39,582 nucleotides of DNA, from the NCBI GenBank assembly GCA_028285305.1, contig JANQPV010000007.1, positions 1-39,582 on the forward strand, written 5' to 3'. This DNA comes from Alphaproteobacteria bacterium (lineage in GTDB: Bacteria > Pseudomonadota > Alphaproteobacteria > SMXP01). The notes under the pieces are model-generated. The model saw nothing but the letters and a program-made list of their open reading frames with translations. It had not been told where the DNA came from and ran no database searches. The translations under genes were made by a program, and so were the position numbers. Position 1 is the first letter of the stretch. Each line of letters starts with the position of its first letter. Below, piece after piece: positions 1 to 39,582 of the stretch.

Positions 1-94
1 CCAGGTGAAGTGGAATCCGGTTCACCGTCAGGAAACGCGCAAAACAAGGAATCTGGAGCCGTTTTGTGTTTCCGTCAAAACCAAAACGGCTCTA
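1..94 (-). repeat. RIME-like palindromic mosaic element, copy 1 (at the dapB stop codon)
   Basis: Read on the minus strand, the element begins with the dapB stop codon (TAGAGCC...). It contains a hairpin whose arms are GAGCCGTTTTG and CAAAACGGCTC, then a second palindrome with outer arm GGAAACGC and inner arms GGTGAA/TTCACC, and it runs off the window edge. It is nearly identical to the copy at 39486-39582 (one visible difference over 94 bases) and shares about 70 bases with the copy ending at 13156. The composite palindrome architecture resembles the intergenic mosaic elements described in rhizobia; membership of a named family is inferred. No T-run follows the stem, so it is not a textbook terminator, although it lies exactly where the dapB mRNA would end. 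Confidence 0.85.
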
Positions 95-898
95 GAGCAC
101 CAACACATCCGCCATCGAATAAAGGCCGGGCTTTTTGTCCCGCGCCCAGAGTGCCGCTTTCACGGCGCCTTTGGCAAAAATGGATCGGTCCGCCGCCTTG
201 TGGACCAGCTCAATCCGTTCGTCTTCGGAGGTGAACAGCACCGTGTGCTCACCGACGACGGCCCCGCCGCGCAAAGCGGCAAAGCCGATGCTCCCTTTTT
301 TGCGTTCACCGGTAATGCCGTCGCGGCCGCGATCCCAAACGTCGGCCAGCTGAACATTGCGTCCGTCAGCGGCGGCTGCACCCAGCATGAGCGCGGTGCC
401 GGAGGGCGCATCAACTTTGTGCTTGTGGTGCATTTCGAGAACCTCGATGTCGAAGTCTTCATCCAAGAGTTCCGCAACGCGTCGGGTCAGCTGAACGAGA
501 AGATTGACGCCCAAGCTCATATTGCCCGCTTTTACTATGGGGATCGTCTTTCCGGCGTCCTGGATATGCTGCTCTTGCTCCGCCGTGAACCCCGTGGTGC
601 CGATAATGTGACGCAGACCTTTTGCTTTGCTTACCTCGAGGGTCTCTAGAGTCGGCTCCGGCAAGCTGAATTCAATGACCGCATCGCAATTGGCGAGAGC
701 CGCGTCCCGATTGTCCGTAAGCGCCACGCCCAGACCGCCGACACCTGCAATCTCACCGGCATCTTTACCCAGCAGCGCGTGCCCCGGCGCGTCTAAGGCG
801 CCGGCGAGCTCACAGTTTTCCGTTTGCTGAACAGTGCGAATGAGCATCTGGCCCATGCGGCCGGCCGCGCCGGCGATTGCTATGCGGTAAGGTGACAT
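92..898 (-). CDS. dapB: 4-hydroxy-tetrahydrodipicolinate reductase
   Basis: Cytoplasmic enzyme that reduces hydroxy-tetrahydrodipicolinate with NAD(P)H in lysine and meso-diaminopimelate synthesis, so it feeds peptidoglycan. The N-terminal Rossmann loop reads AGAAGRMG, and the family signature EMHHKHKVDAPSGTA (substrate-binding histidines and lysine) lies mid-protein. The length of 268 residues is normal. An in-frame TTG lies two codons upstream at 904, but the ATG at 898 has an AGGT-type ribosome site at good spacing and gives the usual MSPYRIAIAG start. It lies downstream of dnaJ on the same strand, with a 149-base gap containing a small dyad. Its stop codon TAG is the first triplet of a repeated palindromic element. 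Confidence 0.96.
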   Translation of the reverse strand: MSPYRIAIAGAAGRMGQMLIRTVQQTENCELAGALDAPGHALLGKDAGEIAGVGGLGVALTDNRDAALANCDAVIEFSLPEPTLETLEVSKAKGLRHIIGTTGFTAEQEQHIQDAGKTIPIVKAGNMSLGVNLLVQLTRRVAELLDEDFDIEVLEMHHKHKVDAPSGTALMLGAAAADGRNVQLADVWDRGRDGITGERKKGSIGFAALRGGAVVGEHTVLFTSEDERIELVHKAADRSIFAKGAVKAALWARDKKPGLYSMADVLVL

Positions 899-992
899 GA
901 TCAACCTGCATTATTCGGGAACGGGACCCTTCAAAGGAAGGGAAATCCATAACAAACCCCACATGGGCTGGGAAGACGAGGATTTCATCCCA

Positions 993-12421: not shown

Positions 12422-12543
12422 ATGTCACCTCCTTTTTTGCGAACGCGCAGGTGGTCCGCTCGCCAAGTCGAAAAATTCATGAGATCTCGTCGAGCCAAAG
12501 TGGTAGTGTGAGTGGATCCAAAACTGTTGTGCGAGGAAATCTT

Positions 12544-12993
12544 ATGGCCCCTCCCAAACCGGTCGCCGGAAACACGCAGCATAAGATCTTTACCAGTTTC
12601 ACCAAGTTGCATGTTTTTCTTTATCGCCTCACCGGTGGTGCGGTGGGAGGCACGATGAGCGGCGCTCCCATTTTGTTGTTGGAGATGATCGGTCATAAGT
12701 CCGGCAAAAAACGAACAATCCCGCTGATCCATCTGGAAACGGACCGGGGGCACGCTATCGTTGCAAGCTATGGCGGCGCCGATGCGCATCCCGCCTGGTA
12801 CAAGAACCTGAAGGCCAACCCTGAGGTCACGATCCAAGTCAAATCGGAGCGCAAACAGGTCAGAGCGGACGATGCCTCGCCAGAGCGCAAGGCCGAGCTT
12901 TGGCCGCGCCTGGTCGAAATCTATGCGGACTATGACCTTTACAAGAAGCGCACCGACCGCGAGATCCCGGTCGTCGAAATGGTACCGCGCTAG
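12544..12993 (+). CDS. Ddn-type nitroreductase/quinone reductase family protein
   Basis: A small split-barrel protein of about 149 residues of the deazaflavin-dependent (Ddn) group: RLTGGAVGGTMSGAPILLLEMIGHKSGKKRTIPL at the N-terminal half (read in parts), then HPAWYKNLKANPEVTIQ. In actinobacteria this family uses F420; in proteobacteria the cofactor is often unproven. The frame is open from 12451, but the ATG at 12544 is preceded by GAGGAA and gives the family-typical length. The stop TAG is followed at once by a second TAG that begins the palindromic element separating this gene from convergent lpoA. Confidence 0.88.
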   Translation: MAPPKPVAGNTQHKIFTSFTKLHVFLYRLTGGAVGGTMSGAPILLLEMIGHKSGKKRTIPLIHLETDRGHAIVASYGGADAHPAWYKNLKANPEVTIQVKSERKQVRADDASPERKAELWPRLVEIYADYDLYKKRTDREIPVVEMVPR

Positions 12994-12994
12994 C

Positions 12995-13156
12995 TAGAGC
13001 GTTTCCAGGTGTGAGCTTAAGAGTCGATTGATCGAGGGTCAATCGACCAAGCGAACGGAATCGTTCGGCGCGAAAGCGCCTCACCACCGTCCGGAAACGC
13101 GCAAAACAAGGAATCTGGAGCCGTTTTGTGTTTCCGTCAAAACCAAAACGGCTCTA
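12995..13156 (-). repeat. RIME-like palindromic mosaic element, copy 2 (extended, fills a convergent gap)
   Basis: The element reaches from TAGAGCG at 12995, directly after the Ddn-like gene stop, to the lpoA stop codon at 13154-13156. The 13086-13156 half matches copies 1 and 3 almost base for base. The other half keeps the outer arms GCGTTTCC (12999-13006) and GGAAACGC, but the inner palindrome is replaced by about 70 bases containing three hairpins: GTCGATTGA/TCAATCGAC (13023-13047), CGAACG-GAAT-CGTTCG (13052-13067) and GGCGC-GAAA-GCGCC (13067-13080). The result looks like a long stem capped by three branches. Confidence 0.8.
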
Positions 13157-14386
13157 GAACGTCAAATCACTGAACGACGTGGCTGCCGGCCGAACGGTTT
13201 CGAATCCGCTGTCTGTGACTTGCAAAATGGCAAGACCGCGCTCCGTCACCCCATCCGCGCGGAACCGGTAAATGCCGTCCACACCGGAGAACCCGAGTGT
13301 GTTCAAGAAATCTGCTTCGTTAAACCTGTTGCCACGGGGTCCGACGACGGCGAGCTGACCAACCAAAGCAACGGCATCATAGGCCAGGCTCGCCAAATTG
13401 GGCGGACGGGAACCGTACGTCGCCTGATACATGCTGACGAATTCTGCACGTGGCTCCGGTGCAGGGGCAGGGAATTGTCCGCCAAGGAGCGATGGCTCCC
13501 GCTGAATGGCCGGGTCGTTCCATTGACCGGTCCCGTAGAATTGTGTTCGCCGCGGGTCGATCCCGTAATATGCAAGGGTCGGCGCCAGACTGCGCAGAAT
13601 ATTGCCGCGTTCTGGGATCAGGACGGCCTGGTATGTGCCCGCCTGTTCAGCAAGCCTTTGGGCCGGCGCAATCGCCGCATCGGTTTTGCGTTCGTAAAAC
13701 TCCGTTTGAACCGCGATGGCACCATGACGCGAGGCGGTTGTGTTGAAGGTATTGAAGATCCGCCGACCATAGGCGCCTTCAGGAATGAGCAGCGCAAACT
13801 GAGATTTGCCGTCCGCAACGGCGTGCTGGGTAATGGCTTCAAGCTCCGCTTCGGGCATCAGGCTCATCAGATAAACACCTTCGCCGGCAGCGGCGCGGTC
13901 CGTTGAAAAGGCGACGACCGGAATATCACGGTATCTTGCCAATTCCGCAGCTGAGCTTACCGATGCCGAGAACAAAGGCCCAAGGATGATCTCAGCCCCT
14001 TCTTCGATGGCTTCCCGTGCCGCTTGGGCAGCCCCATCCGCGGTGCCGCGGGTATCTTTGGGAAGCAGAAGGATCTTTTCGTTCTGCTGCTGAAACAGGG
14101 CCAATTCCGCGGCTTGTTGCATCGCGCGCGCAAGTCGCTGCGTACCCTGAGACGAATGCCCCAGAGGCAGCAACAGGCCGACGCGAACAGGATTGTTTCC
14201 GACCATATGCGGTGCACGAACCCATTTGGACGGGTCGGAATCAGGCGGGATCCGATTTCCATATTGATCCGTTGATCCTGGGCCGTAGACAGGAGCTGGG
14301 CCACTTGAAGGCGTACAAGCCGAGAGGGCAAGCGCCAACAAAGCGCTTATGATCAGCTTTTGCGGGCTTAAAATTCTTGAGAACAT
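13154..14386 (-). CDS. lpoA: LpoA-like penicillin-binding protein activator (periplasmic-binding fold lipoprotein)
   Basis: Outer-membrane lipoprotein candidate with a type I periplasmic-binding fold, related to the C-terminal half of LpoA, which activates PBP1A during peptidoglycan synthesis. The signal peptide ends in the lipobox LSAC (Cys24), followed by a Pro/Ser-rich linker. Phrases such as VGLLLPLGHSSQGTQRLARAM, GPLFSASVSS and PVVAFSTDRA fit the family. At 410 residues it lacks the N-terminal TPR half of enterobacterial LpoA, as is usual for alphaproteobacteria. It diverges from rsmI and neighbours yraN and a dolP-like gene, mirroring the enterobacterial yra cluster. Its stop codon starts a repeat element. 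The symbol is by homology. Confidence 0.85.
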   Translation of the reverse strand: MFSRILSPQKLIISALLALALSACTPSSGPAPVYGPGSTDQYGNRIPPDSDPSKWVRAPHMVGNNPVRVGLLLPLGHSSQGTQRLARAMQQAAELALFQQQNEKILLLPKDTRGTADGAAQAAREAIEEGAEIILGPLFSASVSSAAELARYRDIPVVAFSTDRAAAGEGVYLMSLMPEAELEAITQHAVADGKSQFALLIPEGAYGRRIFNTFNTTASRHGAIAVQTEFYERKTDAAIAPAQRLAEQAGTYQAVLIPERGNILRSLAPTLAYYGIDPRRTQFYGTGQWNDPAIQREPSLLGGQFPAPAPEPRAEFVSMYQATYGSRPPNLASLAYDAVALVGQLAVVGPRGNRFNEADFLNTLGFSGVDGIYRFRADGVTERGLAILQVTDSGFETVRPAATSFSDLTF

Positions 14387-37913: not shown

Positions 37914-39488
37914 ATGACAGCAACGGGCGATCAGCAACAGGTGGCATCGAACGTCACAGAGCCAAAAATGAGCTGGCTCGAAGCGTTCATGGTCTATCTG
38001 AAACCCCAAGTCATCACCATGCTCTTCTTGGGCTTCGCAGCCGGATTGCCGTTCTTGTTGGTCTTCACCACACTCACCCTGTGGCTCGCGGAATTGGACA
38101 TTAAGAAGGCAACAATCGGTTACTTCGCCTGGGTCGGCATCACCTATTCCATTAAAGTGTTCTGGGCGCCCATCGTCGACCGGGTTCCGCTCCCGGGTTT
38201 GACTGCAAGCATGGGCAAACGCCGCAGTTGGATGCTGCTCGCCCAAGCCGGTATTGCTGGCGGGCTGATCGGAATGTCTCTGACGGATCCGTCACAGTCC
38301 ATTGAGCAAATGGCTTTCTTTGCGCTGCTGGTGGCGTTTTCCTCTGCAACACAAGACATCACCATCGATGCCTATCGTATCGAGGCCGCCCAGATCGAAT
38401 ATCAGGGCGCCATGTCGGCGACCTATCAGTTGGGGTACAGAATAGCGATGATCGTCGCTGGGGCCGGCGCTCTGTATTTCGCCGAGTTTTGGTCGTGGCC
38501 GATCGCGTACATGATCATGGCCGCATGCGTCTTGATCGGTGTGATAACAGTTTTGCTGATATCGGAACCGGAGCACAGGCCCATTGAACGCGTGTCCCTT
38601 GAGAGTGAGGCCAAGCGCGAGCAGGTGATGTGGAACTTCATCGTGATCGCCGGTGTGCTGGCAGCGATAGGACTTTATGGATGGAACCAATCCAGCAACA
38701 TCTTGCTCGAGAGCGTCTTTATCGGATTGATGCTTTTGTCCGCCGGCTTATTGGGACTGGCGTATTTGGCTCGCCAAAACCAAGCCGCCGAACTGGTGGG
38801 CTGGTTCGATCAAGCGGTTATCACGCCCTTGCTGGATTTCTTCAAACGTTTTGGCTGGGTCGCTGCGGTCATCCTCATTTTTGTGTCCATTTACCGGCTG
38901 AGTGACATTTCCATGGGGGCCATGGCGAATCCCCTCTACAACGAATTGGGCTACACAAAAATTGAAATCGCCAACGTAGCCAAGTTGTATGGCGTCGTTC
39001 TCAGCATGATCGGAGCCTTTGTAGGCGGCATCCTCGTCGTTCGCTACGGGCTCTCTTGGCCCCTCATTCTGGGGGCGGCTCTCGTTTCGGCCACCAATCT
39101 GGTATTTGCCTGGCTGGCCACAACGAACGCCGAAATCGCGCACCTCATGCTTGCGATCAGCGCCGACAATTTCAGTGCCGGAGTCGCAGGCTCGGTCTTC
39201 ATCGCGTTCTTATCGAGCTTGGTGAGCCAAAAATACACGGCAACCCAATACGCTTTGTTCAGCTCACTATTTACCTTGCCCGGCAAATTCGTAGCCGGAT
39301 TATCGGGTAACGTCGTTGAATACTTCACGGCCTTTTCAGGCGGAGATGAACTCCGAGGGTTCTTCTTCTTTTTCTTCTACGTCGCGGCCTTGGGCATCCC
39401 CGCCGTCGTATTGGCGTGGTTCATGACGGCAAACCGTAGGCTCAAGACCGCCATTGAGAACGGTCAGAAGTCAGCCGCCGCGACCTAG
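37914..39488 (+). CDS. AmpG-like MFS transporter
   Basis: Inner-membrane protein of 524 residues with about 14 hydrophobic segments, matching the AmpG/PAT (peptide-acetyl-CoA transporter) branch of the major facilitator superfamily: LGFAAGLPFLLVFTTLTLWLAE at the first helix, then WAPIVDRVPLPGL and GKRRSWMLLAQAG (the cytoplasmic loop motif) and SSATQDITIDAYRIE. AmpG imports anhydromuropeptides for peptidoglycan recycling; substrate here is inferred. The linker between the two halves is long. GAGGGG precedes the ATG. Its stop TAG is the first triplet of palindromic element copy 3. Confidence 0.9.
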   Translation: MTATGDQQQVASNVTEPKMSWLEAFMVYLKPQVITMLFLGFAAGLPFLLVFTTLTLWLAELDIKKATIGYFAWVGITYSIKVFWAPIVDRVPLPGLTASMGKRRSWMLLAQAGIAGGLIGMSLTDPSQSIEQMAFFALLVAFSSATQDITIDAYRIEAAQIEYQGAMSATYQLGYRIAMIVAGAGALYFAEFWSWPIAYMIMAACVLIGVITVLLISEPEHRPIERVSLESEAKREQVMWNFIVIAGVLAAIGLYGWNQSSNILLESVFIGLMLLSAGLLGLAYLARQNQAAELVGWFDQAVITPLLDFFKRFGWVAAVILIFVSIYRLSDISMGAMANPLYNELGYTKIEIANVAKLYGVVLSMIGAFVGGILVVRYGLSWPLILGAALVSATNLVFAWLATTNAEIAHLMLAISADNFSAGVAGSVFIAFLSSLVSQKYTATQYALFSSLFTLPGKFVAGLSGNVVEYFTAFSGGDELRGFFFFFFYVAALGIPAVVLAWFMTANRRLKTAIENGQKSAAAT

Positions 39489-39582
39489 AGCCGTTTTGGT
39501 TTTGATGGAAACACAAAACGGCTCCAGATTCCTTGTTTTGCGCGTTTCCTGACGGTGAACCGGATTCCACTTCACCTGGAAA
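39486..39582 (+). repeat. RIME-like palindromic mosaic element, copy 3 (at the AmpG-like gene stop codon)
   Basis: The plus strand reads TAGAGCCGTTTTGG... starting at the stop codon of the AmpG-like gene. It is inverted with respect to copy 1 and matches it over 94 bases with one difference (39510, T here against C). It ends with the palindrome CACCTGGAAA at the window edge and probably continues for a few bases (CGCTCTA-type end, as in copy 2). Confidence 0.87.

Follow-up and report, generated by a model that had tools for sequence, protein, structure and literature searches.

A palindromic mosaic element that meets stop codons in an alphaproteobacterial genome is most likely an IS630-type MITE inserted at Y-TA-R

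The palindromic mosaic element whose copies coincide with stop codons in the alphaproteobacterium studied here is, with considerable confidence, a non-autonomous MITE of the IS630/Tc1-mariner type, which targets YTAR, duplicates TA and needs no 3′-end function for its host. The window, that is, the whole stretch of 39,582 nucleotides that was analyzed, corresponds to all of contig G000:C18 in a genome of 5.4 Mb and 77 contigs. It contains the 14-mer TAGAGCCGTTTTGG at exactly three sites, 81–94 and 13143–13156 on the minus strand and 39486–39499 on the plus strand, and every time the TAG terminates a real gene, as a preliminary description had stated for dapB, lpoA and an AmpG-like gene. The far end of the middle copy lies one base past the stop of the neighboring gene, again as that description had it. 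The features concerned are as follows.

1–94, plus strand: short-type element copy; the outer part of its IRL-like end is lost at the contig start and its IRR-like end lies at the dapB stop
92–904, minus strand: dapB (Pfam DapB_N/DapB_C)
92–94, minus strand: TAG, at once dapB stop and the element's IRR-like end; TA is the target duplication, G belongs to the element
12451–12993, plus strand: convergent F420H(2)-dependent quinone reductase-like gene
12991–12993, plus strand: TAG, stop of the quinone reductase-like gene, one base ahead of the TA of the IRL-like end (12995)
12995–13156, plus strand: complete long-type element, 162 bp including both flanking TAs; pre-insertion target CTAG
12999–13100, plus strand: hairpin 2 (long type), stem GCGTTTCC/GGAAACGC, branched tip
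13118–13154, plus strand: hairpin 1, stem GAGCCGTTTTG/CAAAACGGCTC
13154–13156, minus strand: TAG shared by the stop of the LppC/lpoA-like gene and the element's IRR-like end
13154–14386, minus strand: LppC/periplasmic-binding-protein-like gene (‘lpoA’)
37914–39488, plus strand: MFS/AmpG-like gene
39486–39488, plus strand: TAG shared by the stop of the MFS/AmpG-like gene and the element's IRR-like end
39486–39582, minus strand: short-type element copy, truncated at the contig end

The copies at 1–94 and 39486–39582 lie at contig ends because the assembly broke within the repeat. Complete copies measure 104, 128 or 162 bp, both flanking TAs counted, and have no coding capacity. The element's own sequence starts with GAGCC and ends with GCTC, and its two hairpins, hairpin 1 (with the GAGCCGTTTTG stem) and hairpin 2 (with the GCGTTTCC stem), are connected via an A-rich linker. 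Modules differ among copies, and it is the tip of hairpin 2 that distinguishes the size classes, hence the term mosaic; the short type carries a simple GGTGAA/TTCACC tip. The long-type tip, at 13010–13090 of the window, is branched and cloverleaf-like, with three additional palindromes. Folding energies are well below those of shuffled sequences (z −5.0, −6.4, −7.3, and −8.2). Among 21 sequences from several genera the stems stay paired, nine pairs having changed on both sides, a covariation that no shuffle matched, kinship among the sequences inflating the measure. Each end of the element belongs to a hairpin of its own, and the stretch shared by the two is short, being confined to GAGCnGTTT. 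Membership of the Rfam family RT-3 was considered and dropped, since the match reached 19–21 bits against a gathering threshold of 40.5 and was lacking in a sister copy (L003).

The 14-mer has 47 exact sites across the 5.4-Mb genome, and a covariance model at E ≤ 1e-3 gives 93 matches, broken copies being counted twice, numbers that place the repeat beyond chance and extend its core far past the three copies on which it was first seen. About half of the 93 matches lie at contig ends, making the element a major cause of assembly breaks in this draft.

The pre-insertion site of the 28 complete copies was CTAG in 20, CTAA/TTAG in eight and anything else in none, and the preference for CTAG is strong (p = 1e-9). 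The base outside the left-end TA is C in 48 cases and T in five, the base outside the right-end TA, read inward, is C in 39 and T in 10, and the first inner base is nearly invariably G at element ends. Because the outer base varies and the inner G/C hardly does, it is the TA that is duplicated, and the G is part of the element; a four-base duplication of CTAG is ruled out on the same grounds. The relatives searched included no second genome of the same genus, and empty sites were therefore taken from another repeat, from nested copies and from Brucella. The site GGGGAGAGGG-CTAG-GGTGAGGGG is empty at C21:42080 and occupied in its counterpart L058, so that the repeat GGGGAGAGGGCTAGGGTGAGGGG is intact in the former (L221) and split by the element in the latter. 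This short repeat, CCCTCTCCC..GGGGAGAGGGCTAGGGTGAGGGG (L221 ~1501; L058 ~1520–1690), is distinct from the element and has a CTAG of its own, at which the element struck. In L047 a young copy is nested within the CTAA terminus of an earlier copy. Two Brucella pairs were compared as well: Brucella tritici (L117) carries the element at a site that holds exactly TA between the flanks in B. pecoris (L145), and B. pituitosa (L150) carries it where the flanks are two bases apart in B. pseudogrignonensis (L103). Comparison of occupied with empty sites shows a target that reads as Y-TA-R, mainly CTAG, with duplication of the TA. The insertion specificity for CTAG that had been proposed earlier is thereby supported and refined.

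A preference of IS630 for TA within CTAG and the insertion of ISY100 at TA are established (PMC2170065 and its references). Six plasmid-borne, ISRel6-related IS630 copies were compared with the element; their ends read TA-GAGC and they, too, sit in C/T-TA sites. Their right-end (IRR) consensus GAGCGTTTCATGTTTTGACGGAAGCGT and the left end of the element GAGCCGTTTTGGTTTTGACGGAAACAC are identical at 19 of 27 positions, with the 12 consecutive bases GTTTTGACGGAA in register, a match equaled by none of 100,000 shuffles. At the other side, the element's right end GAGCGTTTCCAGG resembles the left end of a Sinorhizobium garamanticum IS630 copy, GAGCGTTTCCGGG, and GAGCGTTTCC is common to the element's right end and an IRL. 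The ends of the element thus resemble the left and right inverted repeats of alphaproteobacterial ISRel6-group elements, whose transposase, supplied in trans, probably moves it. A close ISRel6-type transposase (E < 1e-100) was found in four of 289 genomes, three of which carry the element (co-occurrence p = 0.003, or 0.026 minus the window's genome). Against the IS630 reading stand the state of the only ISRel6-type transposase found in the genome itself (L180, G000:C22:168203–168805), which has an in-frame TAG and one recognizable end, within CTAG, the second end not being found; the fact that no close homologue was found in the element-rich genomes G132, G274, and G013; and the short end-to-end identity, unlike that of a MITE with long perfect inverted repeats. 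It could also be that the same element is moved by a different transposase that targets YTAR and duplicates TA, such as that of IS711, which is known from Brucella and transposes at YTAR with TA duplication, using Bru-RS1 as a target (PMC3163539). This is unlikely, as the ends of the element match IS630 inverted repeats in register in a comparison that covered IS630 ends.

Association with stop codons was measured on the copies collected across the genome and their flanks, with genes called by a home-made hexamer model for which the long ORFs of this genome were the training set (coding fraction 0.88), and the null consisted of the CTAG sites in 40 stretches of 20 kb (800 kb) of the same genome, a few element-derived CTAGs included. 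A stop codon lies exactly at the left (TAGAGCC) end in 10 of 53 distinct ends and exactly at the right (TAGAGCG) end in 10 of 49, as against 0.3–0.7% of random noncoding positions. Among CTAG sites outside gene interiors in the null stretches, 38 of 183 (21%) are themselves stop codons. Counted per side, stops occur at 20/102 element ends and at 41/364 null sides (odds ratio 1.9, p = 0.03), and the sides of the element more often face a gene 3′ end (76/101 versus 168/364, p = 2e-7); once the comparison is restricted to 3′-end-facing sides, stop contact is the same for element and CTAG (20/76 versus 41/168, p = 0.75). The stop association is explained by the target sequence together with retention near gene 3′ ends. 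Copies are not random relative to stops, so that the outcome named in the preliminary description as refuting it is not seen. The bias of insertions toward 3′ ends is explicable by loss of copies upstream of genes.

Of the rule that every copy begins at a stop, less survives: among complete copies eight of 28 are at a stop and about 70% are away from one, and the three of three in the window is a local fluctuation around a genuine genome-wide frequency of roughly one in five ends, for a kind of element that is already known. That the three copies simply happened to meet stops is the least credible account. Three of three has a probability of ∼0.7% at the genome rate of 10/53, and the pattern was picked by the reader of the sequence, so that sampling is the right explanation of that one figure; as a full explanation chance is refuted by a genome-wide rate many times that of random noncoding positions and by its recurrence elsewhere, 10 of 20 copies contacting a stop in three other alphaproteobacterial genomes (the CTAG null being drawn from the window's own genome only). 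The same two observations could be read as insertion machinery that recognizes stop codons or 3′ ends as such, yet this is very improbable, because there is no excess over 3′-end-facing CTAG sites, most complete copies lie off stops, and the YTAR rule also holds where the target was an older copy or a different repeat. Stop recognition was accordingly dropped on the CTAG null.

Another proposal, put forward in the preliminary description, is that of selection for a portable 3′ end; copies at stop codons would then be kept since their hairpin stabilizes or terminates the upstream mRNA. The strength of the hairpins (z −5 to −8), the two-sided changes that keep stems paired across genera, the bias toward gene 3′ ends and the position of relatives at the end of dapB or shortly past it in three lineages all speak for it. 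However, the left and right ends contact stops equally, stop contact does not exceed that of CTAG sites facing 3′ ends, and the 3′ bias is equally expected from loss of promoter insertions; a consensus scan, moreover, detected no T-run or terminator-like site at 12900–13300 that would mark an intrinsic terminator. Equal contact at both ends, the missing T-run and the fit to the CTAG null all weigh against such selection, which appears improbable, and a directional 3′-end function is not supported. Somewhat more plausible, if still doubtful, is a combined account in which the RIME- and Bru-RS-like mosaic palindromes of alphaproteobacteria form one IS630-driven MITE superfamily that is silent at stops owing to the G behind the duplicated TA, and from which some copies, for instance those at dapB in three lineages, have been co-opted as mRNA 3′ ends.

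Under the preferred MITE reading, the element sits between two copies of the duplicated TA within Y-TA-R, with CTAG favored. Since its first base is G from both sides, a copy that enters YTAA or YTAG at the TA always rebuilds TAG, and insertion at a TAA or TAG stop preceded by C or T is silent for the protein. CTAG outside gene interiors being a stop codon about once in five, and copies upstream of genes apparently being lost, many surviving copies lie exactly on stops. A 128-bp copy at L066 1591–1718 adjoins the stops of two convergent genes simultaneously, its target apparently having been a CTAA common to two overlapping stops.

The dapB locus illustrates the retention of stops. In sister species of Brucella/Ochrobactrum, dapB terminates in GAC TAA or GAC TGA when the element is absent and in GAC TAG followed immediately by the element when it is present (L101, L106, L108). 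DapB of the window shares its last position with some homologues and stops no more than four residues short of others, so that its stop position is native. In Rhizobium rhizogenes the dapB stop and the start of the element are no more than about ten bases apart. Family members lie directly 3′ of dapB at L120/L136 3780–3878, at L101/L106/L108 from 3766 and at 1–94 of the window. Hairpin 1 faces dapB in all dapB-adjacent copies, and the site is possibly a recurrent one. Adjacency to dapB in three lineages (the window's genome, Brucella/Ochrobactrum, and R. rhizogenes), a count biased by sampling of the loci via dapB, is the best remaining hint of something beyond target choice.

A puzzling association between a repeat and stop codons can thus be replaced by a simple rule, namely that a TAG or TAA stop survives any insertion of an element that targets YTAR, duplicates TA and starts with G. 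Mosaic palindromic repeats are regarded as of unknown function in the rhizobial sRNA literature, and IS630 ends provide a testable origin for those of alphaproteobacteria. There is also a warning in this, since a mobile element may be the source of stops, 3′ hairpins and contig ends in genomes of this sort.

Relatives of the element were detected in 29 of the 289 sampled alphaproteobacterial genomes (model, E ≤ 1e-5). Those on plasmids of Martelella, Ensifer, Rhizobium, and Nitratireductor cover 87–100% of the element at 71–76% identity, and the covariance model also found matches in R. rhizogenes and Brucella/Ochrobactrum, whereas a regular-expression search of named loci for bounded elements returned nothing above shuffles. 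In two genomes from another family of the class (G132 and G235) the copies are nearly as consensus-like as those of the window's own genome, which may mean horizontal spread.

RIMEs, the Rhizobium-specific intergenic mosaic elements, are intergenic mosaic repeats of the Rhizobiaceae. The present element resembles them as a palindromic intergenic mosaic with full-length relatives on Rhizobium and Ensifer plasmids, although its host is non-rhizobial and one chvI-chvG gap showed only a related-looking palindrome; the rhizobial likeness suggested in the preliminary description thus holds for the Rhizobiaceae relatives and, for RIME itself, by description only. Bru-RS1 and Bru-RS2 are palindromic repeats of Brucella of 103–106 bp (PMC10800456), which the matches of 97–105 bp in Brucella/Ochrobactrum resemble in length and host; the papers cited here cast Bru-RS as targets of IS711, whereas the element is read here as an IS630 MITE. 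Members of the IS630/ISRel6 group share with it the TA-GAGC ends, the C/T-TA target and matching left and right termini, but encode a transposase where the element encodes none. MITEPsy1 of Pseudomonas syringae is likewise a MITE, of 100 nt, that inserts at CTAG or YTAA (PMC3189936), and differs in its reported 4-base duplication, its other ends and its IS5-like nature. RUP of Streptococcus pneumoniae, a MITE of IS630-Spn1, is similar in its length of ∼100 bp, its lack of a gene, its TA target and its ends like those of a resident IS630 (PMC2229807); the element described here differs from it in sequence and host, in its two separate hairpins and CTAG preference, and in that the matching IS630 of its genome has decayed. 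Judged by size, host range and design rather than by sequence alignment, this element is probably already known under the names RIME and Bru-RS.
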